DNA from: an uncultured Eubacterium sp. | GTDB lineage: Bacteria > Bacillota > Clostridia > Lachnospirales > Lachnospiraceae | Direction: 5' to 3' | DNA length: 49,936 nt | NCBI GenBank assembly: GCA_947385775.1 | Contig: CANDMI010000021.1 | Location: 1-49,936 of the forward strand | Translations under genes and position numbers: made by a program | Notes under the pieces: model-generated | What the model was told of the DNA's origin: nothing | Seen by the model: only the letters and a program-made list of their open reading frames with translations | Databases searched by the model: none | In this document: in pieces, positions 4,198 to 42,135 of the stretch | Numbering within the stretch: the stretch's first letter is position 1 | Layout: the number at the start of each line of letters is the position of its first letter

Positions 4198-4263
4198 TGC
4201 GCCAATTAAGAATGCAAATTCGACATGTAATGGAATTTGGCGGCAGAACAAAAGGAAATGTTC

Positions 4264-27089: not shown

Positions 27090-28433
27090 TTGGCCATTTG
27101 GAAAAGTGAAACAGAAGCAAGGAAGCAGATAAAGGACATGGTAGCGCAATACTATGATGCTTTTATAAAGGAGAAAGAGGCGTTTAAGCCGGGAGATCGG
27201 ATAACATACGCGGCGCGCGTATTTGACGAAAAAGAAATGCAGGCGCTTGCGGATGCGATGCTTGATTTTTGGCTGACTACGGGGCGGTTTTCAGAGCGGT
27301 TTGAGCGGGAGTTCGCATCATGGATCGGCGTGGAGTATGCCCATCTTGTAAATTCTGGCTCTTCCGCTAATTTGATCGCTTTTATGGCGCTGACGGCTCC
27401 AGAGCTGGGGGAGAGGCGGATCAAGCCGGGAGACGAGGTGATCACAGTTGCATGCGGGTTTCCTACAACGGTTACGCCAATTCTAAATTATGGGGCTGTC
27501 CCTGTGTTTGTGGATGTGACTGTGCCTCAATACAACATAGACGTGAATATGTTAGATGACGCATATAGTCCTAAGACAAAAGCGGTAATGGTCGCACATA
27601 CGCTTGGGAATCCGTTTTGCCTAAAAGAAGTCAAATCGTTTTGCGATAAGCATAGTCTTTGGCTTGTGGAAGACAACTGTGATGCGTTGGGGACAAAATA
27701 CACGATTGGCAAAGAGACAAAGTTTACAGGAACATGGGGAGACATTGGGACAAGTTCGTTCTACCCGCCCCATCATATGACAATGGGGGAAGGCGGATGC
27801 GTTTATACAGATAATCCTTTGTTGCATCGGCTGATCCTTTCATTTCGCGATTGGGGGCGCGACTGTATCTGTCCGAGCGGGCAGGATGACTTTTGCGGAC
27901 GTCGATTTGATGGGCGCCATGGGGAGCTTCCGGCTGGATATGACCATAAGTATGTATATAGCCACTTTGGATATAATTTGAAAGCTACGGATATGCAGGC
28001 GGCAATCGGCTGCGAACAGCTTAGGAAGCTGCCGGGCTTTGTTGAAAGAAGGAGGCGTAATTGGGATAAGCTGAAAAAAGCGCTTGAGCCTGTGTCGGAT
28101 AAATTGATCCTGCCGGAGCCGGCGGAAAATTCTAAGCCATCGTGGTTCGGTTTTTTAATTTCGGTGAAGCCGGATAGCGGGCTTGAGCGGAATAAAGTTA
28201 CAAGGTATATCGAGGAGCGGCAGGTGCAGACAAGGCTTTTGTTTTCTGGAAATCTGATCAGGCATCCGTGTTTTGGAACGATCAGAGGGACGGACAGATA
28301 TCGGGTTGTAGGCGCGCTTGCAAATACGGATTTTGTTATGGATAAGGCGTTCTGGGTAGGGGTATATCCTGAAATGACGGATGCGATGCTTGATTATATG
28401 GCAAGGGTGATCATTGAGGCGGTAAGCCAGTAA
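27090..28433 (+). CDS. rfbH: CDP-6-deoxy-4-keto-glucose 3-dehydratase (RfbH/E1)
   Basis: The 447-residue PMP-dependent dehydratase starts at TTG 27090 with AGGAGG upstream. It belongs to the aminotransferase fold but carries SSFYPPHHMTMGEGG with His228-His229 where aminotransferases have the PLP lysine, the hallmark of E1/RfbH. Four cysteines around residues 200 and 255-270 (EDNCDALGTKY, GRDCICPSGQDDFCGRRFDG) fit the iron-sulfur-binding pattern of E1. It removes the C3 hydroxyl during CDP-3,6-dideoxyhexose synthesis and normally needs the reductase E3 (RfbI/DdhD), which is not seen here. It pairs with rfbF just downstream and rfbG at 36774. Confidence 0.92.
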   Translation: MAIWKSETEARKQIKDMVAQYYDAFIKEKEAFKPGDRITYAARVFDEKEMQALADAMLDFWLTTGRFSERFEREFASWIGVEYAHLVNSGSSANLIAFMALTAPELGERRIKPGDEVITVACGFPTTVTPILNYGAVPVFVDVTVPQYNIDVNMLDDAYSPKTKAVMVAHTLGNPFCLKEVKSFCDKHSLWLVEDNCDALGTKYTIGKETKFTGTWGDIGTSSFYPPHHMTMGEGGCVYTDNPLLHRLILSFRDWGRDCICPSGQDDFCGRRFDGRHGELPAGYDHKYVYSHFGYNLKATDMQAAIGCEQLRKLPGFVERRRRNWDKLKKALEPVSDKLILPEPAENSKPSWFGFLISVKPDSGLERNKVTRYIEERQVQTRLLFSGNLIRHPCFGTIRGTDRYRVVGALANTDFVMDKAFWVGVYPEMTDAMLDYMARVIIEAVSQ

Positions 28434-28520
28434 CGGCTGACAATTATATGGTAAATTTTATCGCTCGTGAGTATAAATGGATGATTGGCGCTTTTTCATA
28501 CAGAAAGGGAGAAAACGTTC

Positions 28521-29303
28521 GTGAAGGTGGTGTTATTAGCCGGCGGCTTTGGAACAAGAATATCGGAAGAGTCTGAGCGTCGCCCAAAGCCAATGGTAGA
28601 GATTGGCGGCAAGCCGATTCTTTGGCATATCATGAAAGAATACAGTTATTACGGTTACAATGATTTTATTATATGCGCAGGATATAAGCAGTATGTGATA
28701 AAAGAGTGGTTTGCGGATTATTTCTTGCATAATTCGGACATTACTTTTAATTTCAAGAATGGCGTAAATGAAATGAAAGTGCATGACCAGCATTGCGAAT
28801 TATGGGAAGTGACGGTTGTAGATACAGGACAGAATACAATGACGGGCGGACGTATTAAAAGAGTTCAAAAGTATGTTGGCGATGAGCCGTTTATGATGAC
28901 TTATGGTGATGGGGTATGCGATGTCGATATCGGAAAGCTGGTTGAGTTTCACAAGTCCCATGGCAAGATTGCCACAATGACAGCAGTAAAGCAGGAGCAG
29001 CAAAAAGGAGTGCTTGATATAGGGCCGGATTATGCGGTCAAGTCATTTCGTGAAAAAAGCAGTATGGATGGGATTCCGATCAATGCAGGGTATATGGTAT
29101 TTGAACCGCAGATTTTTCATTATTTAAAGGATGATGGGACAATATTGGAGCGCGGCCCAATGGTCCGGTTAGCGGAAGAAGGGGAGCTTATGTCATATTT
29201 ACACACCGGTTTTTGGCAGTGTATGGATAATATGGTGGAAAAGAATAAATTGGAAAAGCTGGTAAACGAACATAGAGCGCCTTGGATTAAATGGGACGGT
29301 TGA
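28521..29303 (+). CDS. rfbF: Glucose-1-phosphate cytidylyltransferase (RfbF)
   Basis: The 260-residue enzyme begins MKVVLLAGGFGTRISEESE, the nucleotide-binding loop of sugar nucleotidyltransferases, with the KPMVEIGGKPILWHIMKEYS continuation typical of RfbF. MTYGDGVCDVDIGKLVEFHK, INAGYMVFEP and GFWQCMDN follow. GTG 28521 has AAAGGGAG upstream and is preferred to the longer start at 28485. It makes CDP-glucose from CTP and glucose-1-phosphate, feeding RfbG and RfbH. Confidence 0.92.
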   Translation: MKVVLLAGGFGTRISEESERRPKPMVEIGGKPILWHIMKEYSYYGYNDFIICAGYKQYVIKEWFADYFLHNSDITFNFKNGVNEMKVHDQHCELWEVTVVDTGQNTMTGGRIKRVQKYVGDEPFMMTYGDGVCDVDIGKLVEFHKSHGKIATMTAVKQEQQKGVLDIGPDYAVKSFREKSSMDGIPINAGYMVFEPQIFHYLKDDGTILERGPMVRLAEEGELMSYLHTGFWQCMDNMVEKNKLEKLVNEHRAPWIKWDG

Positions 29304-29365: not shown

Positions 29366-30394
29366 ATGAATATAACAGACAATATAGAAGTGTTAGATTG
29401 CACACTAAGAGATGGAGGACATGTTAATAATGCCGCATTTGGGCATGACAACATTCTTGCTATTGAAAATGCGTTGGTAAAATCGAATGTTGACATTATT
29501 GAACTTGGATTTTTAAAAAATGGCGTTTTTTCAATAGATCAAAGCAACTATAATCGGATGGAAGATGTCTACGAGAATTTAAAGCATATCAAAGAAAAAA
29601 GAAAATATTCTGTTATGATCCGTCCTGATTGGTATGACATTTCACAGTTATCTGAAAGAACTGGGGATATAAGCCTGATTCGATTTGCATTTTATTTAAA
29701 AGATATAGAACTTACAAAAAAATATTGCAGCATAGCAAGGAAGCTTGGCTATGAAATTGCTATGAATCCTGTAAATATAATGGGCTACAAGGATGAGGAT
29801 TTGATCTATATTTTAAAAGAAGCGAATGATTTAAAGCCTTCTGTTATTAACATTGTAGATACGTTTGGATCGATACAATCCGTAGATTTGGAACATATTT
29901 ATGAACTCTTTGAAAAATATTTAAGTGGAGATATTCGGATAGGATTGCATTTGCATGAGAATATGTCATCTGCGTTTATGCTGATGCAGCATTTTTTGAA
30001 GATAAAAAATCCTGAGAGGAAATCAGTTATAGATGGTTCATTACTGGGCATGGGGCGTGTACCAGGGAATTTGCCAATAGAGATTCTTATGGACTATATG
30101 AACGCCTATCGAGGGCATAACTATAATTTGGAACCTGTTCTTGAGGTTATTTCAAAGGTAATAGAGCCAGAAAAAAAGAAGAGAGAATGGGGGTATCATC
30201 CGGCGTACTATTTTACTGGCAAGCGCCAGATACACCGTTCATTTGCAGAATATTATATTGATTGCCGCAAGGATTTGAATCTTGCTGATATATTTGGGAT
30301 ATTTAATCTTTTAAAAGATGATTCCGATAAGATGATGTTTTCAAAAGATAAAGCAGACGAATATGTACGAATTTATAGGGAGGGGATGCATTGA
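29366..30394 (+). CDS. DRE-TIM (HMGL-like) metallo-aldolase
   Basis: The 342-residue protein opens NIEVLDCTLRDGGHVNNAAF. LDCTLRDGG is the metal/substrate signature of the DRE-TIM family (HMG-CoA lyase, 4-hydroxy-2-oxovalerate aldolase, isopropylmalate synthase). Later, IGLHLHENMSSAFML supplies the HxH metal ligands and SLLGMGRVPGNLPIE the Gly-rich loop, as in oxo-acid aldolases. ATG 29366 is chosen (GAGGGA upstream) over GTG 29336. It overlaps the following ThDP-enzyme gene by four bases (TTGA), so the two are probably made together. It may supply or consume a 2-oxo acid for that enzyme. It lies outside any textbook sugar pathway; function not established. Confidence 0.75.
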   Translation: MNITDNIEVLDCTLRDGGHVNNAAFGHDNILAIENALVKSNVDIIELGFLKNGVFSIDQSNYNRMEDVYENLKHIKEKRKYSVMIRPDWYDISQLSERTGDISLIRFAFYLKDIELTKKYCSIARKLGYEIAMNPVNIMGYKDEDLIYILKEANDLKPSVINIVDTFGSIQSVDLEHIYELFEKYLSGDIRIGLHLHENMSSAFMLMQHFLKIKNPERKSVIDGSLLGMGRVPGNLPIEILMDYMNAYRGHNYNLEPVLEVISKVIEPEKKKREWGYHPAYYFTGKRQIHRSFAEYYIDCRKDLNLADIFGIFNLLKDDSDKMMFSKDKADEYVRIYREGMH

Positions 30395-32214
30395 AAAAAA
30401 GAGTGGCGGATTTTATTGCAAGCTATCTTGCGAATAATGGCTTAAATCAGATATTTACAGTTACTGGCGGTGGCGCTATGTATCTGAATGATGCATTTGG
30501 GCATCATCCAAATTTGAATTGTATCTATAATCATCATGAACAAGCTTGCGCAATGGCTGCCGAAGGATATGCCAGGCTAAGCGGCAGGACTGCTGTGGTG
30601 TGCGTCACATCTGGACCGGGAGGAACGAATGCATTGACAGGAGTTATGGGCGCATGGCTTGATTCTATACCCATGATAATTATATCAGGCCAGATGAAAT
30701 TAAGCACAACAATCGCGTCAACGACGGTGCCGCTTCGTCAGTTGGGTTTTCAGGAGTTTAATATTCTTGATGCGGTTAAATGTATGACGAAGTATTGCGC
30801 GATGGTTAAGAAACCAAAAGATATAAGATATTATCTTGAAAAAGCAAAACGTATAGCGGAAAACGGAAGGCCGGGGCCAGTATGGCTTGATATTCCGTTG
30901 GATGTACAGGGGGATCAAGTCGATATTGAAGAATTAAAGAAATACCATCCTGGAGAGGATAGTTTCTTAAATATATCAGTTCCGACACAAGAGCAGATTG
31001 AGCATATTGTTCATAAAATTAAAGAATCCAAAAGGCCGGTTATTTTGGCAGGCAACGGCATAAGAGCCGCACATGCAGTGGAGGCGTTTTTAAAGGTAGT
31101 TGAGAAATATCGGATTCCCGTTGTGACAGCATGGAATGCGCATGATCTTATACATGACGCTAATCCACTGTTTGCAGGAAGGCCGGGGACGATTGGGACA
31201 AGAGGAGGAAATTTTGTTGTGCAAAACAGCGACCTTCTTATTTCACTTGGATGCAGGATGAATCTAAGGCAGATTAGTTATGAATGGAAAAATTTTGCAA
31301 AACATGCGTACAAGATAGCGGTTGACATTGATGAAGGAGAACTTCGAAAGCCGACCCTGGCAAATGATTATTCAATCCACGCAGATGTAAAAGATGTGTT
31401 GAATGAGCTGCTGAATACGGATTATGTTGCAGACGAAAAACTAGAAGATTGGATCCAATGGGCAAAGGATATTAATCATAGATACCCAGTGGCGCTGGAG
31501 GAATACAGGCAACAGTATAGGAGTCCTATAAGTCCGTATATTTTTATGCAGGAGCTTTCACAGAGGTTAAAAGGCACCGATACGGTGGTAGCGAGTAATG
31601 GGACAGCTTGTGTTTGTGGATTGCAGGTGATCGACATAAAAGATGACATGAGAATGTTTACAAATGCAGGAGCTTCTAGCATGGGGTACGGGCTTCCAGC
31701 AGCCGTAGGCGCTTGTATCGCTGACAGAACCAGGAAAATCATTTGCCTTGAAGGGGATGGAAGCATTCAGATGAATCTGCAAGAGTTGCAGACAGTGGTT
31801 CATCATAATTTGAATATGAAGATTGTATGGCTCAATAATGATGGTTATCATTCTATAAGACAGACGCAATGTCAGGTTTTTAATGGAGAACGCTTCGGTT
31901 ATTGCGGGGTAAACGCTTCGAGCGGTATCAGTTTCCCCGATGCGGAAAAAATATCGAATGCTTTTGGAATTAAGTTTTTTAGAATAGATAACGATGAAAT
32001 GTTAGATATTCTCCTGTCACAGTTTTTGGAAGGGGATGGACCGGCTTTATGTGAAGTTGTTCTTGATAAGACACAGTTTTTTTCGCCAAAACTGTCTTCA
32101 AGAGTAAATGAGGACGGGACAATTACATCTCCTTCATTGGAAGATATGAGTCCATTTCTGCCAAAGGAAGAAATAGCTGAAATCATGATTGCGGAAAAGG
32201 AATATTATGAGTAG
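30391..32214 (+). CDS. ThDP-dependent enzyme, acetolactate synthase/YerE-like
   Basis: The 607-residue protein has the three-domain layout of ThDP enzymes of the acetohydroxyacid synthase group: catalytic Glu in YNHHEQACAMAAEGYARLSG (near residue 50), SGPGGTNALTGVMGAW, a central domain with RPVILAGNGIRAAH, and the ThDP-Mg motif EGDGSIQMNLQELQTV to WLNNDGY (about 453-490). Together with RfbF, RfbG and RfbH it recalls YerE of CDP-yersiniose synthesis, a ThDP enzyme that adds a two-carbon acetyl unit from pyruvate to C4 of a CDP-4-keto-3,6-dideoxy sugar. That role is an inference. TTG start with AGGGAGGGG upstream; coupled to the aldolase and, by overlap, to the next gene. Confidence 0.8.
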   Translation: MKKRVADFIASYLANNGLNQIFTVTGGGAMYLNDAFGHHPNLNCIYNHHEQACAMAAEGYARLSGRTAVVCVTSGPGGTNALTGVMGAWLDSIPMIIISGQMKLSTTIASTTVPLRQLGFQEFNILDAVKCMTKYCAMVKKPKDIRYYLEKAKRIAENGRPGPVWLDIPLDVQGDQVDIEELKKYHPGEDSFLNISVPTQEQIEHIVHKIKESKRPVILAGNGIRAAHAVEAFLKVVEKYRIPVVTAWNAHDLIHDANPLFAGRPGTIGTRGGNFVVQNSDLLISLGCRMNLRQISYEWKNFAKHAYKIAVDIDEGELRKPTLANDYSIHADVKDVLNELLNTDYVADEKLEDWIQWAKDINHRYPVALEEYRQQYRSPISPYIFMQELSQRLKGTDTVVASNGTACVCGLQVIDIKDDMRMFTNAGASSMGYGLPAAVGACIADRTRKIICLEGDGSIQMNLQELQTVVHHNLNMKIVWLNNDGYHSIRQTQCQVFNGERFGYCGVNASSGISFPDAEKISNAFGIKFFRIDNDEMLDILLSQFLEGDGPALCEVVLDKTQFFSPKLSSRVNEDGTITSPSLEDMSPFLPKEEIAEIMIAEKEYYE

Positions 32215-33583
32215 GCGAGAGAAGATTACCCAAAGATATAACGCGAATGGATTGTCGCTTAAACAGAATACACGAATTGCCGTTGTTTCCAACAAGCCTG
32301 ATACGGTATCCAAAAAGGTGTTCCATATTTTAAAAAGGGAGTATAAAGCGTTTTATGCATCTTTAAACCCACAATATGATGAAGAATTGCTGATTGATAT
32401 ATCGAATCCGAAAGCTGCGGAAGGATTTTTTTACTATTATAGGATAGATGTAATGATTTTATGCAGCAGTTTTTTAGATAATGCTGAATCGGATAATTAT
32501 AAAGAAGCATACAGTTTGATCAATCTTTGTGCATTGAATGAGATTAAACCAGTGTTTCTTTATGAAAAAATCCGCGTAGCCTCAATTGGAGCTGGTGAAA
32601 GCAGAATCGTTGGCGTTGACGATGCTTACAATAGGATTTGTGAAGAAATATCAAATAAGGTATTAGGTGTGGCAAATGGCTTGGTTATAAAATGTTCGAT
32701 CACTTATGGTTTTGATATAAAAGCTTCTAACTGTGACAGTGTGGAAGCGTTTTTCCTTGACAGGATTTTTTCTTTTGATAATTCGAAGTATGTTGCGCAG
32801 ATGGACCCGATGCTTATCGATGAAGTCAGCGAATTTGTTTCGGATTGTATTGATAAAGTAGGATGTATCAATGTAACAGATGAACAGGGGATTTTATCGG
32901 GTAATAAATGTTCTTTTACGGATATGAAAAAAGGAGCCGACATTGTATCAAAGCAAAAGGGGTGTGTATTTAATCTAATATACCAGCTTATGCCTGGCGA
33001 ATATTTTGGGGGTGAAAGAGTTGCCAAAGTACGTATTGCTTTAGGCGAAAGGCTGGCATCGCGTATTCCAGATGGAGTTAAAAAACAGGTTGATTATATT
33101 ATTCCTGTCCCTAAAACAGGATTATTTTATGCAATGGGGCTTTCAAAAAAATTGCAGATTCCTTACATGCAGGGATTGTTAAAGGAAAATACGGATGAAC
33201 GTAGTTTCCAAATGTTAGATGTAAATGTTCGTAAGGAATTTTTGAAAAGTAAGATTTCATTTATAAGTGAGTTGTTGAAAGAAAAGTCTGTAATTCTTGT
33301 CGATGAGGCCATATTTACTGGAACAACATTAAAAATGGTATGTAAGATGCTGTGGGGGGCGGGTGTAAAGAGGATTTTTTTGGGTATACCGACTCCGCCA
33401 TGCTATGTGACTTGTGGATATTACGTTCAGCCTGAAAGGAAGATGCTTTTAGAGTATGTAAGAGAAGATATGTTGACAGAGTATTTTGATGTTGATGCAG
33501 TTTATTTTCAAACTGTAATTGATTTTATGAGTGAAATTCCAAATGTAAAAGGGTTATGTGCAGAATGTTTTACCAGGAGGTGA
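32207..33583 (+). CDS. Degenerate SDR domain fused to a PurF-like phosphoribosyltransferase
   Basis: The 458-residue protein starts at ATG 32207 (AAAGGA upstream), overlapping the ThDP gene by eight bases. The N-terminal half (about 20-225) resembles an RmlD-like SDR (strand RIAVVSNKPDTVSKKVF, IDVMILCSSFLDNAES, VIKCSITYGFD), but GxxGxxG and YxxxK are lost. The C-terminal half is a type I phosphoribosyltransferase of amidophosphoribosyltransferase type: VDYIIPVPKTGLFYAMGLSK, MQGLLKENTDERSF, and the PRPP loop VILVDEAIFTGTTL near residues 362-375. It lacks the glutaminase domain of PurF. I know of no characterised sugar-locus enzyme with this architecture; substrate and reaction are unknown. Confidence 0.65.
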   Translation: MSRREKITQRYNANGLSLKQNTRIAVVSNKPDTVSKKVFHILKREYKAFYASLNPQYDEELLIDISNPKAAEGFFYYYRIDVMILCSSFLDNAESDNYKEAYSLINLCALNEIKPVFLYEKIRVASIGAGESRIVGVDDAYNRICEEISNKVLGVANGLVIKCSITYGFDIKASNCDSVEAFFLDRIFSFDNSKYVAQMDPMLIDEVSEFVSDCIDKVGCINVTDEQGILSGNKCSFTDMKKGADIVSKQKGCVFNLIYQLMPGEYFGGERVAKVRIALGERLASRIPDGVKKQVDYIIPVPKTGLFYAMGLSKKLQIPYMQGLLKENTDERSFQMLDVNVRKEFLKSKISFISELLKEKSVILVDEAIFTGTTLKMVCKMLWGAGVKRIFLGIPTPPCYVTCGYYVQPERKMLLEYVREDMLTEYFDVDAVYFQTVIDFMSEIPNVKGLCAECFTRR

Positions 33584-33589
33584 TAAGAG

Positions 33590-34252
33590 TTGAATAGATT
33601 GGTGGCAATTGTACCAGCAAGGTTCTGTAATGATGAGGGATTGGAAAATAAAGATATACTTCCGTTTGATGGTGTGAATTTGCTAACGCACAAGCTTAGG
33701 CAATTGAAGCAGGTGGACGGGATAGATATTATTGTTTCTTCTGAAAATGATGATATTTTAAAGATGGGCAAAACAGAAGGAGTCGAGTGTATAAAGCGGC
33801 CGCTGGAACTTGCGAGATCGGACGCTTCGTTTGGAGATTTTGTGGAATATATATGTGAGATTGTAAAGCAGGAGCACATTATCTGGGCATGTGTAACATC
33901 GCCGCTGATTACTCCTATAATATATCGGAAAGCCATCGATACTTATTTTGAAGGGTTGGAAAAGGGGTTTGACTCTCTCGTTACCGTTCAGCGGTTGCAA
34001 AGATACCTCATGGATGAAAATGGAGCGATAAATTTCAAACCAGGCAGGAATGTCAAGATCAAGAATCAGGTCAAGCCGATATATATATTCACCAATGGCA
34101 TATCTATTGCGCCCCGTGAATCCATGAGGGGCTGGAAATATACAAGCGGAGATATACCTTATATGTTCGAACTGGGGAAAAAAGAATCCATAGACATTTG
34201 CGATGAGTTTGATTACGAATGCGCAAAAAAGTTTTTTCACTCGAAGGTTTAA
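33590..34252 (+). CDS. Acylneuraminate/CMP-sugar cytidylyltransferase-like protein
   Basis: The 220-residue protein starts at TTG 33590 behind a perfect AGGAGGTGAT (33575-33584). It opens RLVAIVPARFCNDEGLENKD; the usual signature is a basic ARxGSKxxxxKN, here altered so that the SKR/K residues are missing. Later DIIVSSENDDILKMGKTEGV, CIKRPLELARSDAS and TSPLITPI match NeuA/PseF/KdsB-type enzymes. These couple a sugar to CMP from CTP. The eroded signature loop makes activity uncertain. Its presence suggests that module iv may end in a CMP-activated acidic sugar rather than a plain CDP-hexose. Confidence 0.7.
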   Translation: MNRLVAIVPARFCNDEGLENKDILPFDGVNLLTHKLRQLKQVDGIDIIVSSENDDILKMGKTEGVECIKRPLELARSDASFGDFVEYICEIVKQEHIIWACVTSPLITPIIYRKAIDTYFEGLEKGFDSLVTVQRLQRYLMDENGAINFKPGRNVKIKNQVKPIYIFTNGISIAPRESMRGWKYTSGDIPYMFELGKKESIDICDEFDYECAKKFFHSKV

Positions 34253-34267
34253 AGGGGAATATGTTGA

Positions 34268-35284
34268 ATGAAGGCAGATTATGTAGCAAAAATAGAAAAT
34301 AGCAAAAGACATGAATTGAAAGATGTTGTTCCATTGGACAAGCCATATAGCTTAATGATAGATATCGCTGACGTGTGTAACATGAAATGTAAGTTTTGCT
34401 TTCATGCTGACTTAGATGCAGTAAAGAAAGTCAACGCACAATTTGGGGTAATGCCAATGAATATGTTTATCAAAATTGTTGATGATATAAAAACAGGTTG
34501 GGGGGGTGATTTTGGTATAAAAAAATTACGGTTATTTGCGAACGGAGAACCTTTGTTAAACAAAAATGCATTAAAAATGATAAGTTATGCGAAATCCTTA
34601 CATATAGCTGAAAAGGTAGAAATGACAACAAATGGTTCGCTGATTAATGATGAAATAGCGGATAATATTTGCGGAGCCGGGCTTGACATATTAAATATTT
34701 CGGTTAATGGGTTGACAGAAGATCAATATAGGGATGTTTGCGGGTATCATATGGATTTTGATTATTTTATTCAACAAATACGTCGTTTGTACAATAAGAG
34801 GGGAAATTGCCGTGTACAAATAAAGTATAGCGATATAGGGTATTCAGATGATGAGAAAAAGAAATTTGTTGAAGAATTTGGAGATATATGTGACCAGATA
34901 TTTGTTGAGAGTATTTCGTCATCGCTTTGGCCGGATACGGATGTAAATGAAAAAGTAAGAGATCAGGAGCTTGATTTCTGGGGTGGGAAATATAAAAAAA
35001 AGAAAATCTGTCCAAGCATATTTACCCAAATGGTTATTAATAGCCGTGGAAAAGCAAAATTGTGTTGTTCAGACTGGGGGAGTAGAGTGATCGTAGGAGA
35101 TGCGTCTACGCAAAGCGTTAAAGAAATCTGGGAGAGGGGATATGTTCCTTTGCAGAAGAGATTTTTGATGGAAGAAAGAGGGGTTTATACTATGTGTAAA
35201 GAATGCAGCCTTCCAGAAGCGGCCAGCTCAGATAATTTAGATGATTATGCAAAAGAGGTTATCTTACGTTATGATAAATATTAA
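34268..35284 (+). CDS. Radical SAM protein with SPASM-like C terminus
   Basis: The 338-residue protein has the CxxxCxxC cluster motif at Cys37, Cys41 and Cys44 in IADVCNMKCKFCFHADLD, then a glycine-rich strand (KLRLFANGEPLLN) and MTTNGSLI typical of the radical SAM barrel. Toward the C terminus KKKICPSIFTQMVINSRGK, AKLCCSDWG and YTMCKECSLPE give a SPASM/Twitch-like set of extra cysteines for an auxiliary cluster. Such proteins occur in polysaccharide loci, where they may dehydrogenate, epimerise or rearrange a sugar or its carrier. No peptide substrate gene is seen nearby. The reaction is not predictable from sequence. Confidence 0.85.
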   Translation: MKADYVAKIENSKRHELKDVVPLDKPYSLMIDIADVCNMKCKFCFHADLDAVKKVNAQFGVMPMNMFIKIVDDIKTGWGGDFGIKKLRLFANGEPLLNKNALKMISYAKSLHIAEKVEMTTNGSLINDEIADNICGAGLDILNISVNGLTEDQYRDVCGYHMDFDYFIQQIRRLYNKRGNCRVQIKYSDIGYSDDEKKKFVEEFGDICDQIFVESISSSLWPDTDVNEKVRDQELDFWGGKYKKKKICPSIFTQMVINSRGKAKLCCSDWGSRVIVGDASTQSVKEIWERGYVPLQKRFLMEERGVYTMCKECSLPEAASSDNLDDYAKEVILRYDKY

Positions 35285-35329
35285 AATTATAAAAATAGAT
35301 TTAAATAATGGCGTCATCGAAGATATTTG

Positions 35330-35780
35330 TTCAAATTGAGTATATCAGAAAAGTAGAAAGTATGATAAGTGGGATTTACTCATTGTATCAATGATGTTGG
35401 AGCATATAGTTGATCCGTGATGGTTTATTGAGAAATGCAGGGATTTATGTAATAAATATATGTTTATAGAAATACCTACGCTTGATTATAAAACAGAGGA
35501 AGAAGTGGCCTGCTATAGATACACTGTGGATAAAAGAGGAACGTTCAATAGTGGTAAAAAGCGCATTAAAAGGTATGTTTTCTTCTGAGGAGCTATTAGT
35601 TAGATACATAGAAATAAATAAGGGTATATTAGATAGAATAGAAGATATTTTGAATGAAATTAACGATAACGATGAAATAGCTATTTGGGGTGTTGGCCAT
35701 CACGCCATGGGATTGAAATGTTTAATGGTATAAAAATAACAGGATATGATCCAAATGATATTATGAAATATCACATTAAG
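35330..35780 (+). pseudogene. SAM-dependent methyltransferase remnant
   Basis: Broken frames preserve pieces of a class I methyltransferase with a C-methyltransferase-type tail. One frame reads KYDKWDLLIVSMMLEHIVDP, then an in-frame TGA, then WFIEKCRDLCNKYMFIEIPT, matching the usual post-motif strand (LEH...P) and the loop after it. Further on another frame has IEINKGILDRIEDILNEIND and EIAIWGVGHHAMG, as in the C-terminal domain of sugar C-methyltransferases, then a shift to EMFNGIKITGYDPNDI. At least one stop and two frameshifts are present and the N-terminal SAM motif I is missing, so the gene is dead. Confidence 0.65.
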
Positions 35781-35796
35781 GGATGTGGAGAAATGT

Positions 35797-36705
35797 ATGG
35801 CAAAAAAAGTGGTAGTTACAGGAGCGACAGGGGCCATAGGGATGGCGTTGCTTGGCATTTTACAAAAAGAAAAAGTTTACACATTGGTTCTTCTTCACAA
35901 AGGATCTGAAAGGAATAGTAATATTCCTGTTTCTCAATTTATAAAAACAAAATATTGTGATATAGAAGAATATGATTTTTTTGAAGATGAGGAATCTTAT
36001 GACATTTTTTTTCACATGGCATGGAGTGGGGGAGGAGCTAGGCAAGACGTTAAAAGGCACTATGCCAATGTCTGGTATTCCTTAAATGCATTATTGCTTG
36101 CGAAAAAGCTTGGATGTAAACGATTTGTTTTTACGGGGTCACAAGCAGAATACGGGTTGAAAGATTGCAAACTCAAGGGTTCCGTTTCATGTGAGCCAAT
36201 AAACCCATTTGGCGCATCTAAACTTTATGCCGGCCAGATGACTCGGTTTCTTTCCCTTCAGTTAGGCATTGAGCATATATGGTGCAGGATATTAAGCGTA
36301 TATGGTCCTTATGATGGAAAGAATACGATGGTTTCCAGTGTGCTAAGGCAATTGCTTGAGGGAAAATCACCAAGACTTACAAAGTGCGAACAGGTATGGG
36401 ATTATTTGTATAGCGAAGACGCTGCAAAGGCTATTTATTTGTGTGGCTTAAAAGGCAGGACAGACAGAATATACCCTATTTGCAGTGGAGAAGGACGTGT
36501 CCTTAAAGAATACGTAGAAGAGATGTTTGAAGCTATGAATTTGCATACAGATATACGTTTTGGAGAAATACCTTATAGTGACAGCCAAACAATGTATTTA
36601 AGCGGGGATATTTCAGAGTTGGTCAAAGATACAGGGTTTCAAAGAAAATACTCTTTTCGGGAAGGTATTGAGAAAACAGTTCATTGGATGAAAGGATGCA
36701 AATAG
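35797..36705 (+). CDS. SDR-family sugar epimerase/reductase (RfbJ-like)
   Basis: The 302-residue protein opens AKKVVVTGATGAIGMALLGI with a complete GxxGxxG loop. FVFTGSQAEYG carries the catalytic Ser and PFGASKLYAGQM the conserved Lys of YxxxK, although Tyr is replaced by Phe/Gly in this stretch (NPFGASK), so catalysis may differ. CRILSVYGPYDGKNTMV and QVWDYLYSEDAAKAIYLCG are typical of extended SDRs acting on NDP-hexoses. ATG 35797 (GGAG upstream) is preferred to GTG 35785. Its position before rfbG suggests that it reduces C4 of a CDP-3,6-dideoxy-4-keto sugar, as RfbJ does, or a branched product of the ThDP enzyme. Confidence 0.65.
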   Translation: MAKKVVVTGATGAIGMALLGILQKEKVYTLVLLHKGSERNSNIPVSQFIKTKYCDIEEYDFFEDEESYDIFFHMAWSGGGARQDVKRHYANVWYSLNALLLAKKLGCKRFVFTGSQAEYGLKDCKLKGSVSCEPINPFGASKLYAGQMTRFLSLQLGIEHIWCRILSVYGPYDGKNTMVSSVLRQLLEGKSPRLTKCEQVWDYLYSEDAAKAIYLCGLKGRTDRIYPICSGEGRVLKEYVEEMFEAMNLHTDIRFGEIPYSDSQTMYLSGDISELVKDTGFQRKYSFREGIEKTVHWMKGCK

Positions 36706-36773: not shown

Positions 36774-37922
36774 ATGTGGAAACAAAGCAGGCAGCATTCA
36801 GTTAAAATGGAAGAAACACTCAACTTTTATAAAAATAAACGGATATTAATAACAGGAAATACTGGTTTTAAAGGTTCATGGTTAACATATATTCTTTTAT
36901 TATCAGGAGCTAAGATAGTAGGCTTTGCGCAAAAGCCGCCAACAATGCCGAATCTATTTACTATTTCTGGGATATCAGATTCTAAGTTGCATCAAATAAC
37001 AGCGGATATAAGGGAATTGGAGCGGGTGTATAGCGCGTTTAAAGAACATCAGCCTGAGATTGTGTTTCATTTGGCTGCACAGCCCATTGTCCGTAAGTCC
37101 TATTCCGACCCAGTGGCTACCTATTCTACGAATGTAATGGGCGCTGTAAATGTTTGCGAGGCGATTCGGCTCACACCGTCAGTTCGTTCATTTCTAAATG
37201 TTACAACAGACAAAGTTTACAAAAATATGGAATGGGAATATGGATATAGAGAGGATGATCCGTTGGATGGTTTCGACCCATACAGTAATTCAAAGTCCTG
37301 TAGCGAGTTGGTTACTCATAGCTATAAGGACTCTTTTTTTCAGGATGGCTTAGTGGCTGTTTCAACTGCAAGGGCTGGAAATGTGATAGGTGGAGGCGAT
37401 TTTAGCGCTGACCGCATCATACCGGATTGTGTGAGAAAGGCTATGGAAGGCAAAGAGAGTGGAAAAGATGTGGTCATTGGCGTGCGTAATCCTTATTCGA
37501 TCCGTCCTTATCAGCATGTTCTTGAACCATTGTTTATGTATCTTGTCATTGCAATGAAACAATACGAAAATCCCTCTTTTTCAGGATATTATAATATTGG
37601 TCCAGATGATATAGATTGCGTGCCAACGATGGAACTTGTAACTATGTTTTGTGATAAATGGAATAAAAGGAAGGATACGTCATTGCCTAGATTGTCATGG
37701 GAGGACAGGGTAGAATTAAATGCGCCGCATGAGTCGGACCTTCTTAAGCTTGATTGCAGCCGGGTAAAATCAAGATTTGGATGGCGGCCAAGGTGGCATA
37801 TAGATAAAGCGATAGAAGAAACCGTAAGATGGACAAAGATATGGATAAGCGATGGGGATGTGAGAGCTGAGATGGACAGAGAGATAAAGGAATATATAAA
37901 TGAAGGAGGCCTTCACAGATGA
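36774..37922 (+). CDS. rfbG: CDP-glucose 4,6-dehydratase (RfbG)
   Basis: The 382-residue SDR has the RfbG-specific opening FYKNKRILITGNTGFKGSWL, FHLAAQPIVRKSYSDPVATY, NVTTDKVYKNMEWEYGYRED and DPYSNSKSCSELVTHSYKDS. These provide the nucleotide loop, the TDK active-site segment and Tyr-xxx-Lys. It converts CDP-glucose from RfbF to CDP-4-keto-6-deoxyglucose, the substrate of RfbH. ATG 36774 has GGGGAGG about 15 nt upstream; ATG 36807 (MEETLNFYKN) is a reasonable alternative. It overlaps the next gene by four bases (ATGA). Confidence 0.92.
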   Translation: MWKQSRQHSVKMEETLNFYKNKRILITGNTGFKGSWLTYILLLSGAKIVGFAQKPPTMPNLFTISGISDSKLHQITADIRELERVYSAFKEHQPEIVFHLAAQPIVRKSYSDPVATYSTNVMGAVNVCEAIRLTPSVRSFLNVTTDKVYKNMEWEYGYREDDPLDGFDPYSNSKSCSELVTHSYKDSFFQDGLVAVSTARAGNVIGGGDFSADRIIPDCVRKAMEGKESGKDVVIGVRNPYSIRPYQHVLEPLFMYLVIAMKQYENPSFSGYYNIGPDDIDCVPTMELVTMFCDKWNKRKDTSLPRLSWEDRVELNAPHESDLLKLDCSRVKSRFGWRPRWHIDKAIEETVRWTKIWISDGDVRAEMDREIKEYINEGGLHR

Positions 37923-38911
37923 AATCGAAACATATAATGCAAAAAAAGGACAGGATTTATGTTGCGGGACATACTGGATTGGTGGGTTCAGCGATCGTTA
38001 GGAGATTGAAAAGAGAAGGATTTGATAATCTTATCTTTCGCTCACATTTGGAATTGGATCTGACTGATCAGCAGGCGGTCAATCGTTTTTTTGAATCGGA
38101 AAGACCTGACTTTGTCTTTATGTGCGCAGCGAAAGTGGGTGGGATTCAGGCGAACAAAGAAGCGTTGGATCAGTTTCTGTACGTCAATGCCATGATTGAA
38201 TTTAACACGATAATGGCCGCATATTATAATGGGGTAAAAAAATTCTGCCTTATGGGAAGCGGATGCATATATCCGCGGGAATGCCCGCAGCCAATAAAAG
38301 AAAAGTATCTTCTCACGTCGCCGCTGGAGATCACGAACGAAGGATATGCGCTTGCTAAGATCAGCGGCCTTAAGCTTTGCGAGTATTTAAACGCGCATCA
38401 TCCGGATAAGGCGGACTATATATCTGTGATGCCCTGCAATCTGTATGGCCCTGGCGATAACTACCATCCAGAGCGTTCGCATGTGATACCTGCGCTCATT
38501 CGTAAGTTTCATGAGGCGAAGGAATCGGAAAATGATGAGGTTGCAATGTGGGGGACGGGATCTGCGATGCGAGAGTTCCTTCACATTGACGACGTTGCGG
38601 ACGCTTGTTTTTTCCTTATGCAGAATTATTCTGGAGATCCGGGGGAGAATGGGACGCCCGGGGAATCGTGGATTAATGTTGGGTGCGGCGTTGATCTGAC
38701 AATGAAAGAGCTTGGAGCGAAAATAGCAAGGATTGTAGGCTTTAAGGGTAAGATAGCTTATGACCGCGTTCACCCGGATGGCACGCCAAGAAAGCTGTTG
38801 GATTCAACAAAGCTGTTTGATATGGGATGGAGGCCGTCCATCGGCTTTGAGGAAGGGCTTAAGCGGACGTATGAGGATTACAGGATAAATAAAAATAGAT
38901 ATAGGCGATAA
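37919..38911 (+). CDS. GDP-L-fucose synthase-like 3,5-epimerase/4-reductase
   Basis: The 330-residue protein has the Fcl/WcaG signature: IYVAGHTGLVGSAIVRRLKR, FMCAAKVGGIQANKEALDQF, LMGSGCIYPRECPQPIKEKY with the catalytic Ser, and NEGYALAKISGLKLCEYLNA with Tyr-xxx-Lys. MPCNLYGPGDNYHPERSHVI follows as in GDP-fucose synthases. The same fold also serves in GDP-6-deoxyheptose pathways (DdahC/MlghC type). Because HddA, a GMD-like dehydratase, a cupin and GmhA lie next to it, a heptose substrate is as likely as GDP-4-keto-6-deoxymannose. The overlap with rfbG shows co-transcription. Confidence 0.88.
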   Translation: MKSKHIMQKKDRIYVAGHTGLVGSAIVRRLKREGFDNLIFRSHLELDLTDQQAVNRFFESERPDFVFMCAAKVGGIQANKEALDQFLYVNAMIEFNTIMAAYYNGVKKFCLMGSGCIYPRECPQPIKEKYLLTSPLEITNEGYALAKISGLKLCEYLNAHHPDKADYISVMPCNLYGPGDNYHPERSHVIPALIRKFHEAKESENDEVAMWGTGSAMREFLHIDDVADACFFLMQNYSGDPGENGTPGESWINVGCGVDLTMKELGAKIARIVGFKGKIAYDRVHPDGTPRKLLDSTKLFDMGWRPSIGFEEGLKRTYEDYRINKNRYRR

Positions 38912-38941
38912 TCGCATTGCGGTTATGCGGGAAGGACAGTT

Positions 38942-39961
38942 ATGGTTATTACGAAGACGCCGTTTCGTATGTCTTTTTTTGGCGGTGGAACGGATATGGA
39001 GGAGTTTTTCAATGAACACGGGGGGGCGGCGCTGTCCACGACGTTTGATAAGTATTGTTACGTGATCGTGAGGCATTTGCCGCGATTTTTTGATTATAGG
39101 AATCAGGTTTCCTATTCGAAAATTGAAAAAGTGAGGCGCACTGGCGAGATACAGCATCCTGCGGTGCGTGAGGCGATGAAGTATTTAGACATGCATGAGT
39201 TGATGATAACATATGACGCCGACCTTCCAGCGAGAACTGGCCTTGGCACAAGCAGTTCGTTTGCCGTGGGCATGTTAAGCGCGTTTTACGCGCTTAAAGG
39301 CAAGTATGTGTGCAAGAAAAAGCTTGCGGATGACGCGATTTACCTGGAAAGGGTGCTGTGCAATGAAGCGGGGGGCTGGCAGGATCAGATCGCGGCCAGC
39401 TTTGGAGGGTTGAACAGGATAGATTTTTGTAATGGCGGATATAAGGTTTCGCCCATTATAATTTCGCCGGAGCGAAAGAAGCTGTTAAACAGAAACCTGA
39501 TGCTCTTTTTTACAGGCTTTTCGCGTTTTTCCGCTAAGATTCAAGAGGATGCGAGGAAACATATAGGCGGCAATACAATTACGCTTCTGAAGATGATGGA
39601 CATGGTTGACGAAGCGGAGAGAATACTGATTGACAAAAACGCAGATTTGGATGATTTTGGCGTTTTGCTGGATCGTTCCTGGAGACTAAAGAGAGGAACG
39701 GGCAAGGGGATAAGCACCGATGAAATAGATAAGCGCTATGATATCGCCATTTCGGCGGGAGCTTTGGGAGGGAAGCTGTTAGGCGCGGGCGGCGGCGGAT
39801 TTTTGCTTTTCTATGTGCCGGAAAGCAAAAGGGAAGCGGTAAAGACAGCTCTCAAAGGCCTTATGCTTGTTCCGTTCGAATTTGAAAATGCGGGCACGGA
39901 AATAATATATTATTCACCGGAAGAGTTTCCTACGGCGATGAGAGAGGGGCGTCATAAATGA
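38942..39961 (+). CDS. hddA: D-glycero-alpha-D-manno-heptose-7-phosphate kinase (HddA-like)
   Basis: The 339-residue GHMP kinase opens VITKTPFRMSFFGGGTDMEE, the N-terminal motif of HddA/FGGY-independent sugar kinases. ARTGLGTSSSFAVGMLSAFY is the GHMP ATP-binding loop (PxxxGLGSS type), and GGKLLGAGGGGFLLFYVPES the C-terminal Gly-rich motif. It would phosphorylate D-glycero-D-manno-heptose-7-phosphate at C1, after GmhA (41488). The phosphatase GmhB and guanylyltransferase HddC needed to reach GDP-heptose are not visible in the window. It overlaps the GMD-like gene by four bases. Confidence 0.87.
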   Translation: MVITKTPFRMSFFGGGTDMEEFFNEHGGAALSTTFDKYCYVIVRHLPRFFDYRNQVSYSKIEKVRRTGEIQHPAVREAMKYLDMHELMITYDADLPARTGLGTSSSFAVGMLSAFYALKGKYVCKKKLADDAIYLERVLCNEAGGWQDQIAASFGGLNRIDFCNGGYKVSPIIISPERKKLLNRNLMLFFTGFSRFSAKIQEDARKHIGGNTITLLKMMDMVDEAERILIDKNADLDDFGVLLDRSWRLKRGTGKGISTDEIDKRYDIAISAGALGGKLLGAGGGGFLLFYVPESKREAVKTALKGLMLVPFEFENAGTEIIYYSPEEFPTAMREGRHK

Positions 39962-40989
39962 AAGCGTTGATAACAGGAATAACGGGGATGGTCGGATCTC
40001 ATCTCGCGGACTATTTGCTTGAGAACACGGATTGGGATATATATGGGGTTTGCCGTTGGCGCAGCCCGCTTGATAATGTGTCGCATTTGTTGGAGCGAGT
40101 GAACAGGAGAGACAGGATTTTTTTCGAGTATGCGGATCTGAATGATGAAATGAGTCTGATTGAAGTGGTTCATAAGATAAAGCCGGATTATGCGTTTCAT
40201 CTAGCGGCGCAGTCATATCCGCAGACTAGCTTCACAGCTCCGATTGACACATTAAACACGAATATTCTTGGCACTTGCAGATTGCTTGAGGCGTTTCGGC
40301 TGGCGATGCGGCAAGATAAGGCTTACCAGCCTGTGATGCACATTTGCGCGTCGTCTGAGGTGTTTGGAAGAATACCGGGAGATAAAAAGCCAAAGGAAGG
40401 CATCCACGAGGAGTGCCCCTTTCATCCAGCGAGCCCATATGCGATAAGTAAAACGGGGACCGATCTTTTGGGTCGATATTATGCGGAGGCGTATGGCATG
40501 ACGGTAATGACAACCCGCATGTTCACGCATACAGGCCCTCGTCGTGGGGACGTGTTCCATGAATCCACTTTCGCGAAGCAGATTGCGATGATAGAAGCCG
40601 GAATGATCGAGCCGACAGTCCGAGTTGGAAATCTCAACAGCCTTAGGACCTATGCCGATGTTCGGGACGCGGTAAAGGCGTACCATATGCTTGTGACGGT
40701 TGAGCCGATTGCAGGAGAATACTATAATATTGGCGGGGAATATACCTGTAAAGTGGGCGATACGTTAAACACGCTGCTTTCCTATAGCTCTAAAAAAGAT
40801 GAAATTGAAATAATCATAGATCCAGAAAGGCTTCGGCCCATTGACGCTGACTTACAAGTGCCTGATTGCAGAAAGTTCAGAGCGCATACGGGATGGAGGC
40901 CGGAAATACCGTTTGAAAGGACCATGTACGATCTTCTCAGCTATTGGAGAGACAGAGTGGGTAGGGGAGAAAGCTTTTTAATGAGATAG
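39958..40989 (+). CDS. GDP-mannose/GDP-heptose 4,6-dehydratase (GMD/DmhA-like)
   Basis: The 343-residue SDR begins KALITGITGMVGSHLADYLL. YGVCRWRSPLDN, FHLAAQSYPQTSFTAPIDTL, CASSEVFGRIPG and HPASPYAISKTGTDLLGRYY contain the nucleotide loop, the Ser-Ser-Glu segment and Tyr-xxx-Lys. RTYADVRDAVKAYHMLVTVE is the usual C-terminal strand of the GMD family. It removes water across C4-C6 of a GDP-sugar. Coupling with hddA (ATGA overlap) points to GDP-heptose; GDP-mannose is the alternative and would give GDP-fucose with the Fcl-like enzyme. Confidence 0.87.
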   Translation: MKALITGITGMVGSHLADYLLENTDWDIYGVCRWRSPLDNVSHLLERVNRRDRIFFEYADLNDEMSLIEVVHKIKPDYAFHLAAQSYPQTSFTAPIDTLNTNILGTCRLLEAFRLAMRQDKAYQPVMHICASSEVFGRIPGDKKPKEGIHEECPFHPASPYAISKTGTDLLGRYYAEAYGMTVMTTRMFTHTGPRRGDVFHESTFAKQIAMIEAGMIEPTVRVGNLNSLRTYADVRDAVKAYHMLVTVEPIAGEYYNIGGEYTCKVGDTLNTLLSYSSKKDEIEIIIDPERLRPIDADLQVPDCRKFRAHTGWRPEIPFERTMYDLLSYWRDRVGRGESFLMR

Positions 40990-41034
40990 CTATGGATCTG
41001 GATGCGCAGCTAAAATATAAGGCGGGTATGGTAT

Positions 41035-41403
41035 ATGTTGATCGAACGAATTGAGGTTGATTTCGAGTATGAAGATGATAGAGGCGTTCTCACACAACTA
41101 GTGCATCGCGGGTATTCGCAGATTAACGTGGTGACGTCCAAAGGAGGAATGTCCAGAGGTGGGCATTATCACAAATACAACACAGAAGCGTATTTTATCA
41201 TCCGGGGAAAATGTAAGGTGACTGCAAGAAGAGGGGATGAACAAGAGAGTGGCATATTTGTTGCGGGGGACTTTTTTAGATTAGGGCCTTATATTTCGCA
41301 TGATTTTCATTATATTGAAGATTCAATTCTCGTAACTATGTATAGCCTTGGGATAGAAATGGAAAACGGTGAAAAGGACAGCTTTTTAGGATATGTGAGA
41401 TAG
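41035..41403 (+). CDS. Cupin-fold sugar epimerase/isomerase-like protein
   Basis: The 122-residue single-domain cupin has EYEDDRGVLTQLVHRGYSQI and the metal-site stretch SKGGMSRGGHYHKYNTEAYF, where His-x-His and Glu form the usual ligands. The second cupin motif, GDFFRLGPYISHDFHYIEDS, follows. It resembles the C-terminal cupin of CapF and the sugar 3- or 3,5-epimerases. Its place between the GMD-like enzyme and GmhA matches the C. jejuni-type 6-deoxyheptose sets, where a cupin (DdahB/MlghB) works between dehydratase and reductase. It may thus set the heptose stereochemistry. Confidence 0.7.
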   Translation: MLIERIEVDFEYEDDRGVLTQLVHRGYSQINVVTSKGGMSRGGHYHKYNTEAYFIIRGKCKVTARRGDEQESGIFVAGDFFRLGPYISHDFHYIEDSILVTMYSLGIEMENGEKDSFLGYVR

Positions 41404-41487
41404 AGGATTGGTTTGGGATATATGATGTGGAAATAATTTTTATACGCGTAATTGTGTTCATTAGCATTGAAATTGTAGGAGGCGTTT

Positions 41488-42135
41488 ATGGATTCAAGAT
41501 TACAGCCGCATATAGATTTATTAACGTTTCGTTATCCGAATTTAAAGTCTATTGAAGAACAGATAATAACAGCCTATGATTTGTTTCAGGAAGCGTATGT
41601 CAAAGATAAAAAGCTGTTGATAGCCGGCAACGGCGGTTCCGCCGCTGACTCGGAGCATATAGCGGGTGAGCTGATGAAACGGTTTAAAATGCCTCGTCCG
41701 GTCGCGCAGACCTTTGCATCTAAATTAGAGCGGATCGATCCTGTAAGAGGGCGGCAGCTTGCTAAAAATCTTGAGCGTGGGCTTATGGCGATACCATTAG
41801 TGGCGCATGAAGCAATGTCCACTGCATATATAAACGATGTCGACGGGTATGGAGTGTTTGCGCAGCAGTTGTTCGGCTATGGACGGGAAGGCGATGTGTT
41901 TCTTGGAATCTCCACATCGGGAAACAGCGTTAATATTATGAATGCGGCGGTTGTTGCAAGAGCGCTCGACATTAAGGTGGTTGGTTTAACCGGAGCTGAC
42001 GGAGGAGAATTGGGAGGTTTTGCGGATGTCACGGTAAAGGTTCCAGAGACAGAAACGTATATGGCGCAAGAACTGCACCTTCCTATTTATCATTGCTGGT
42101 GTTTGATGTTGGAAGATTACTTTTTTGGAAGGTAA
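41488..42135 (+). CDS. gmhA: Phosphoheptose isomerase (GmhA, SIS domain)
   Basis: The 215-residue protein starts at ATG 41488 with TAGGAGG upstream. KKLLIAGNGGSAADSEHIAG then ELMKRFKMPRP is the GmhA signature; FLGISTSGNSVNIMNAAVVA and KVVGLTGADGGELGGFADVT complete the SIS fold, and HLPIYHCWCLMLEDYFF the C-terminal helix. It converts sedoheptulose-7-phosphate to D-glycero-D-manno-heptose-7-phosphate, the first step toward GDP-heptose. It is the last gene of the polysaccharide locus. No strong terminator follows directly; the next gene has its own promoter. Confidence 0.92.
   Translation: MDSRLQPHIDLLTFRYPNLKSIEEQIITAYDLFQEAYVKDKKLLIAGNGGSAADSEHIAGELMKRFKMPRPVAQTFASKLERIDPVRGRQLAKNLERGLMAIPLVAHEAMSTAYINDVDGYGVFAQQLFGYGREGDVFLGISTSGNSVNIMNAAVVARALDIKVVGLTGADGGELGGFADVTVKVPETETYMAQELHLPIYHCWCLMLEDYFFGR

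Follow-up and report, generated by a model that had tools for sequence, protein, structure and literature searches.

A 49,936-nucleotide stretch of DNA from an uncultured Eubacterium sp. of the Lachnospiraceae (GenBank assembly GCA_947385775.1, contig CANDMI010000021.1), the whole of which is referred to below as the window, carries a run of sugar genes that is probably an operon for a cytidine diphosphate (CDP)-linked, long-branched 3,6-dideoxyhexose of a surface polysaccharide, fed by an aldolase and with its supply module exchanged. RfbF, RfbG and RfbH make CDP-3,6-dideoxy-4-keto-hexose, RfbH requiring an E3 reductase, and would here provide the acceptor. The aldolase would join pyruvate and an aldehyde into a 4-hydroxy-2-oxo (3-deoxy-2-ulosonate-like) acid, which a carboligase dependent on thiamine diphosphate (ThDP) would decarboxylate, adding the hydroxyacyl unit to the C4 ketone to give a tertiary alcohol; a short-chain dehydrogenase/reductase (SDR) would then reduce the ketone of the branch. 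As a guess, an SDR-phosphoribosyltransferase fusion and a cytidylyltransferase may prepare the aldehyde or the keto acid. Carboligation onto a ketone has been reported for relatives of the ThDP enzyme with smaller donors (PMC12247030, a review cited throughout for its passages on YerE-like enzymes).

Organization of the operon

In the following, ALD denotes the aldolase, ThDP the ThDP carboligase, PRT the SDR-phosphoribosyltransferase, CMPT or CMPTa the cytidylyltransferase, and L with a number the loci compared; genes in the relatives were called by picking open reading frames (ORFs) and labelled by homology to a few queries. The genes of the operon, with positions in the window, are:

27090..28433, forward strand, RfbH/DdhC-like CDP-6-deoxy-xylo-4-hexulose-3-dehydrase (E1); NCBIfam PRK15407, 706 bits, cut-off 423
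28485..29303, forward strand, RfbF, glucose-1-phosphate cytidylyltransferase; TIGR02623, 347 bits, cut-off 300
29366..30394, forward strand, ALD, short DRE-TIM (HMGL-like) aldolase, ATG start; Pfam HMGL-like 3.6e-18, RDGGH and HLH motifs
30391..32214, forward strand, ThDP, predicted YerE/JanthE-like carboligase; Pfam TPP_enzyme N/M/C, match to 8rph, tree
32207..33583, forward strand, PRT, whole ORF, ATG start; Pfam Pribosyltran 3.4e-09
32207..32896, forward strand, N-terminal half of PRT, degenerate RmlD-type SDR; alignment to the intact RmlD domain of L066, Foldseek
32951..33583, forward strand, C-terminal half of PRT, PurF-like phosphoribosyltransferase domain with a C-terminal CxxCF; TIGR01134 1.2e-22, Foldseek
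33590..34252, forward strand, CMPTa, divergent NeuA/KdsB-like cytidylyltransferase; Pfam CTP_transf_3 6.3e-10
34268..35284, forward strand, radical SAM/SPASM protein; Pfam Radical_SAM 2.6e-14, SPASM 3.7e-09
35285..35784, forward strand, broken gene, probably for a C-methyltransferase; weak tblastn pieces to L192_9
35785..36705, forward strand, SDR in a YerF-like position, near YerE-like genes; Pfam Epimerase 5e-31
36774..37922, forward strand, RfbG, CDP-glucose 4,6-dehydratase; TIGR02622, 411 bits, cut-off 278

An earlier, sequence-only reading had described seven features in this order between 29366 and 36705, with short overlaps, and this description was confirmed: ALD, ThDP, PRT, CMPT, the radical SAM gene and the SDR gene, the six complete members of the set, all have intact ORFs, and the ALD/ThDP and ThDP/PRT overlaps comprise 4 and 8 bases, respectively. 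The families it had guessed for these six genes agree with Pfam, the SDR half of PRT being placed by alignment and Foldseek. The seventh feature is indeed a broken gene; its assignment as a C-methyltransferase is the weakest item, the open piece having no Pfam or NCBIfam match and only weak tblastn pieces to one C-methyltransferase-like protein (L192_9; best E 0.001 on a 500-base target). The proposed bounds of the module enclose genes that are present but cut a larger operon, since rfbH (27090) and rfbF (28485) immediately precede the module and rfbG (36774) immediately follows it; all three exceed their curated NCBIfam cut-offs and belong to the same unit.

The gene set is more than a chance assembly, because the locus L107, from a Lachnospiraceae metagenome-assembled genome, keeps RfbF-RfbG-RfbH-ALD-ThDP-PRT-CMPT-SDR contiguous. 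Identities to the window are 71% for RfbF, 58% for RfbG, 78% for RfbH, 74% for ALD, 77% for ThDP, 55% for PRT, 75% for CMPT and 38% for the SDR, and the 4-base ALD/ThDP overlap is also found there.

The ThDP enzyme and the branching core

The ThDP enzyme, previously called acetolactate-synthase-like, is predicted to be a YerE/JanthE-like ketone carboligase, being nearer to JanthE than to acetohydroxyacid synthase (AHAS) both by solved matches and by tree. Among solved structures, 8rph, which we take to be JanthE, matches it best (E 9e-119), followed by 5ahk (7e-75), which we presume may itself be a YerE-like enzyme, and by AHAS I (6lpi, 1e-72). The identification of 8rph is supported by the CDG motif, which is named for JanthE in PMC12247030 and is seen in the matched chain, whereas the ThDP enzyme of the window has the canonical GDG. 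In a 19-row tree, from which YerE itself was absent and in which JanthE sat on a long branch, the enzyme fell on the JanthE side, apart from the two AHAS of its own genome (support 100/100). A role as acetolactate synthase was rejected: these two AHAS (TIGR00118, 715 and 742 bits) occupy the opposite side of the tree, and the ThDP enzyme reaches only 364 bits, below the cut-off of 538. AHAS encoded on plasmids match it at 29.6–33.3% identity, and a plasmid search with the ThDP query gave no match at 1e-100.

Together with the SDR and rfbF/G/H, this enzyme constitutes a known kind of pathway, namely that of CDP-3,6-dideoxy sugars branched at C4. The SDR gene, whose position is presumably that of YerF, encodes a protein 40% identical to SDRs near ThDP in L096 and L097. 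The other YerE-like places found in a phylum survey (n = 11, 398 genomes) were nearly all near rfbF, rfbG or rfbH, and some were also near an SDR 40% like that of the window; among 73 loci of the family, at least one of the three rfb genes was near ThDP in 45 and all three in 27. Because YerE-like genes recur near rfbF/G/H, some with an SDR, half of the supposed new module is of a known pathway kind. The statement that no known pathway uses this set could not be upheld, since ThDP, SDR and rfbF/G/H fit the pathway kind described in PMC12247030, and genomes of the family carry rfbF-rfbG-rfbH-aldolase-HAD-ThDP-SDR (e.g., L157 and L158).

With YerE and the yersiniose A of the Yersinia pseudotuberculosis O-antigen, the window shares the CDP-3,6-dideoxy-4-keto sugar, a YerE-like ThDP carboligase and an SDR nearby; the donor of YerE, however, is pyruvate (PMC12247030), whereas in the window an aldolase gene overlaps the ThDP gene and PRT and CMPTa are added. 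ErwE (erwiniose) prefers 4-hydroxy-2-oxo acids, and MMAR_2332 (caryophyllose) is similar, both being YerE-like enzymes of longer-branched sugars; the section of PMC12247030 on them mentions no aldolase, PRT or CMPTa partner.

Split transketolase-like pairs were seen with CDP-glucose dehydratase genes in L108 (23–1857), L140 (6789–8539) and L104 (14697–16417), and these possibly perform ketol-transfer branching instead of, or beside, YerE.

Keto-acid-forming enzymes near YerE-like genes

Since 4-hydroxy-2-oxo acids are the product type of pyruvate aldolases, the neighbours of YerE-like genes were surveyed, and keto-acid synthases from several unrelated families (DRE-TIM, HpcH/HpaI-like, NeuB and 3-deoxy-D-arabino-heptulosonate 7-phosphate synthase (DAHPS)-like) stand near them. 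The first survey, across the phylum, comprised 13 loci obtained with ThDP or RfbH queries, the window being excluded, and the synthase was sought within the fetched stretch. A keto-acid-forming enzyme was present in 9 of these 13 loci against none of nine rfbH loci without ThDP (Fisher p 0.0017), among which L134, L135 and L142 are close to a contig end, L132 and L133 share a genome, a transketolase-like pair occurs in L140 and the genome of L143 has ThDP on another contig. The partner was HpcH/HpaI-like in L096, L097 and L099 (Pfam, 31 bits in L097 and 29 bits in L099 against a cut-off of 25; L096 via 72% identity), a DRE-TIM enzyme in L098, DAHPS-like with an epimerase and a HAD protein in L101 (Pfam) and L138 (69% identity), and NeuB with a KdsC-like HAD protein in L081 (Pfam), L102 and L103 (both by identity); none was found in the fetched stretches of L100, L104, L136 and L141. 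The window's own genome has a second branched-sugar locus (G000:C28; L081, L144): NeuB, a KdsC-SIS fusion and a YerE-like gene of 40% identity stand there, and rfbH/F/G and an SDR lie at a distance of about 15 kb.

In the larger survey, a YerE-like gene was found at E ≤ 1e-110 in 69 of 299 genomes of the family, at 77 places, and 73 loci were analysed; the ThDP surveys did not recover the window, L107 or L083. Six-frame tblastn of the fetched stretches detected a synthase in 43 of the 73 loci, a DRE-TIM aldolase in 31 (of a shorter type, with 22–23% identity, in L203 and L207) and a NeuB homologue in 12. The centre of the aldolase gene lay within 2.8 kb of ThDP in 27 of the 31 DRE-TIM loci, a common order being RfbF-RfbG-RfbH-ALD (about 540 amino acids)-HAD-ThDP-SDR-glycosyltransferase.

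A FastTree of 90 ThDP rows (L169, without an intact ThDP ORF, was excluded) placed the window in a clade of 25 rows (support 0.97), of which 21 have a DRE-TIM partner and two, L096 and L097, an HpcH/HpaI-like one, so the partner type was swapped within the clade; the two rows without a synthase, L163 and L167, come from contigs that break off close to ThDP. No aldolase centre in this clade lies more than 2.6 kb from ThDP, and the presence of a synthase in 23 of 25 rows compares with 7 of 34 in the sister clade (Fisher p 3.5e-8, uncorrected for kinship). All 18 rows of another clade have a synthase (2 DAHPS, 6 DRE-TIM and 10 NeuB).

The cooperation of the aldolase with the ThDP enzyme, as suggested by the sequence-only reading, is probable, given the position of the latter nearer to JanthE and the recurrence of aldolase-ThDP pairs. 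A 2-oxo-acid synthase beside the carboligase, our own mark of an ErwE-type pathway, is present in the window as ALD, and we infer from the partner genes and the review data on ErwE (PMC12247030) that the donor is a 4-hydroxy-2-oxo acid. A literature search for erwiniose, caryophyllose or YerE branched sugars together with an aldolase returned only PMC12247030, the primary papers on ErwE and on an in silico survey lying outside its coverage, and none was found for aldolase together with cytidylyltransferase. Whether the aldolase-YerE pairing as such is new is uncertain, and a link of this kind may already be in print.

A probable exchange of the supply module

The best solved match of ALD is 3dxi, a "putative aldolase", followed by 4-hydroxy-2-oxovalerate aldolases, and its R-D-x-x-H and HxH pair align to 1nvm, the aligned residues being catalytic ones in these aldolases. 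Scoring 69.6 bits against the TIGR03217 cut-off of 286, ALD is aldolase-like but not an equivalog of 4-hydroxy-2-oxovalerate aldolase. With that enzyme, presumably the DmpG type, it shares the HMGL-like domain and both motifs, but it reaches only 74 bits against the NF006049 cut-off of 229 and lies among sugar genes. In a FastTree of 53 aldolases, the window and L107 fall together with L108 and L112 (the latter entered as L067) in a 15-row clade of mostly RDGGH aldolases; CMPT is within 3.5 kb in six members by a strict test and near three more (L071, L073 and L074). A clade of 25 RDGGY/F aldolases, mostly with ThDP, is located elsewhere in the tree. Note that in L067/L112, L069 and L070 a DRE-TIM aldolase is near KdsC- and KdsB-like genes; no KdsA was noticed, although KdsA was not searched for, and the aldolase may replace 3-deoxy-D-manno-octulosonate (Kdo)-8-phosphate synthase there.

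L108 and L112 have the order PRT-CMPTa-ALD-CMPTb-KdsB, with KdsC also in L112. With the usual aldolase-HAD pair apparently replaced in the window by a trio that otherwise occurs with KdsB, the operon looks like a known branching core with an exchanged supply module: in the window and L107, a short aldolase of the CMPT-linked clade, PRT and CMPTa would act in place of the long aldolase and the HAD phosphatase that most relatives in the ThDP clade have, and in L108 and L112 the same trio would act with KdsB toward an apparent cytidine monophosphate (CMP)-ulosonate. The predicted co-occurrence of these families in other genomes was borne out, the pairing of PRT with ThDP being seen only in the window and L107.

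For the SDR half of PRT, Pfam gave no separate match; Foldseek of the model (mean pLDDT 77) gave PurF at 9.3e-15 and, more weakly, RmlD-type SDRs at E about 1e-6. The phosphoribosyl pyrophosphate (PRPP)-type motif VDEA.FTG.TL is conserved in 7 of 7 sequences, and the C-terminal half has a C-terminal CxxC, a motif with a catalytic role in PurF. A function in purine synthesis was rejected, the phosphoribosyltransferase part of PurF alone being matched (TIGR01134, 80.9 bits against a cut-off of 350, profile positions 212–428 only). A first pass with the PRT query matched 169 of 196 genomes of the order, nearly all at 26–34% identity over residues 250–456; by length and range these are probably purF, with the exception of G077 at 1e-57. 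A stricter threshold left only the window's own genome among 391 of the class, PRT was not found in the 73 family ThDP loci at 100 bits, and a scan of 84,980 species genomes found six loci, from which distant relatives may be missing since two short peptide patterns were used. A precedent for PRPP as a donor in capsule assembly is the Haemophilus influenzae type b capsule polymerase Bcs3 (PMC10299916, in the passage concerned), a PRPP-using transferase from which PRT is set apart, by description, as a PurF-like domain fused to a degenerate SDR. In L109–L111 a nucleotidyltransferase-RmlD-phosphoribosyltransferase fusion occurs; no aldolase was seen, the stretches of L109 and L110 ending within 0.9 kb of the fusion. 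It adjoins a second nucleotidyltransferase and, by our own reading, YidC/TagF-like proteins, and a PRPP-using, teichoic-acid-like system is possible there.

The CMPTs adjoining PRT form one clade of four (95/96). All four have another residue in place of the second Asp of the DxD motif, which the nine others aligned all keep; the window protein has PARFCNDEGLENKD and DIC, where L072, for example, has PVKKTSSRLPNKN and DID, and departs from the CMP-ulosonate synthetases (NeuA/KdsB) in both the P-loop S-R and the DxD metal motif, which are functional elements of those enzymes. The earlier proposal of a carbon-extended, branched sugar carried by CMP or CDP stands as to the probable cooperation of a YerE-type enzyme with an aldolase and as to CDP; a CMP-activated product is unlikely because this clade has lost the second Asp and because KdsB, KdsC and a second CMPT were not found in the window by tblastn. 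That a single module activates the branched sugar itself as a CMP derivative appears very improbable: CMPT does belong to the operon and is kept with ALD, ThDP and PRT in L107 at 75% identity, but RfbF and RfbG would already supply a CDP-linked keto sugar, as known for their families, and conserved motif residues have been lost from CMPT.

The radical SAM gene was not seen in L107; a relative (26%) lies next to the aldolase in L098, and matches of at least 60 bits occur in 3 of the 73 family loci.

Opposing evidence and alternative explanations

A number of observations count against an aldolase-fed branching operon. No DRE-TIM or NeuB partner was found in 30 of the 73 family loci by tblastn with the chosen query set or in the gene lists; these include short contigs and many compact rfbF-G-H-ThDP-SDR-glycosyltransferase sets, and YerE-like enzymes can therefore work without a synthase partner. 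The NeuB partners lie 1.3 to 8.6 kb from ThDP (8.6 kb in L217), and 7 of the 12 are just 26–40% identical to the query. The Fisher values overstate independence because the tree groups share ancestry, and the border between YerE-like enzymes and AHAS is not sharp, since the rfb-linked ThDP genes of L136 and L141, without a synthase, sit on the AHAS side (TIGR00118, 486 and 488 bits). HAD phosphatase queries had no match in the window or L107, a HAD gene being near ThDP in 17 of the 23 other rows of the clade. The clade of the window ALD is otherwise tied mostly to CMPT and not to ThDP, and ThDP was not found in the fetched stretches of L108 and L112, where PRT-CMPTa-ALD also occurs.

The last two points, together with the KdsB of L108 and L112, the KdsC of L112 and the existence of compact ThDP loci without a synthase, favour two interleaved pathways, in which rfbF/G/H-ThDP-SDR would make a yersiniose-like sugar with pyruvate as the donor and ALD-PRT-CMPT a CMP-activated ulosonic acid. 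This explanation is nevertheless unlikely, as the absence of KdsB, KdsC and a second CMPT from the window in the tblastn search, the divergent clade of CMPT, the 4-base ALD/ThDP overlap in both the window and L107, and the synthase in 23 of the 25 rows of the ThDP clade, with the other two on cut contigs, all speak against it.

Two further observations against such an operon concern its downstream part. The gene preceding the SDR gene (35285–35784) is broken, and the SDR has FGASK, with Phe for the catalytic Tyr of YxxxK, which is retained in 7 of 7 aligned relatives. Both would be in keeping with a decaying island that no longer makes its sugar; this is improbable, given that the remaining genes are intact ORFs with their overlaps kept and that the order ALD-ThDP-PRT-CMPT is kept in L107 at 55–77% identity.

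Neighbouring genes

Near the start of the cluster, a NusG-domain protein is encoded at 4237–5037, in what we read as a LoaP-like position, and a fused initiating sugar transferase-epimerase-glycosyltransferase at 7496–10621. Two adjacent, overlapping ORFs at 21325–22789 both match NDP-hexose 2,3-dehydratase (Pfam Hexose_dehydrat), either as separate halves or because the gene is split; they adjoin an oxidoreductase and an SDR as a further deoxysugar set. The genes at 37919–42135, in our own naming Fcl-like, GHMP kinase (HddA-like), Gmd-like and GmhA-like, suggest that the cluster also holds a guanosine diphosphate (GDP)-heptose or GDP-fucose type pathway.

Implications

A bolder extension, which we regard as rather doubtful, is that a new front end, made up of PRT, CMPTa and the short aldolase, converts a PRPP-linked pentose to a sugar-sized 3-deoxy-2-ulosonic acid, which would be CMP-activated in L108 and L112 but, in the window and L107, decarboxylated and grafted whole onto the CDP-dideoxyhexose to give a fused sugar of about 13 carbons. 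On this broader view, NeuB, DAHPS-like, HpaI-like or DRE-TIM synthases would supply YerE-like enzymes, which would act as "ulosonate grafters" in general. The aldolase-fed operon by itself would predict donors for a large set of YerE-like enzymes, the type of synthase nearby indicating the 2-oxo acid that is added. If this holds, NeuB near YerE-like genes may feed carbon-carbon grafting and need not feed CMP-sugars; the annotation of polysaccharide loci in the family would change, and enzyme pairs for making tertiary alcohols would become available.

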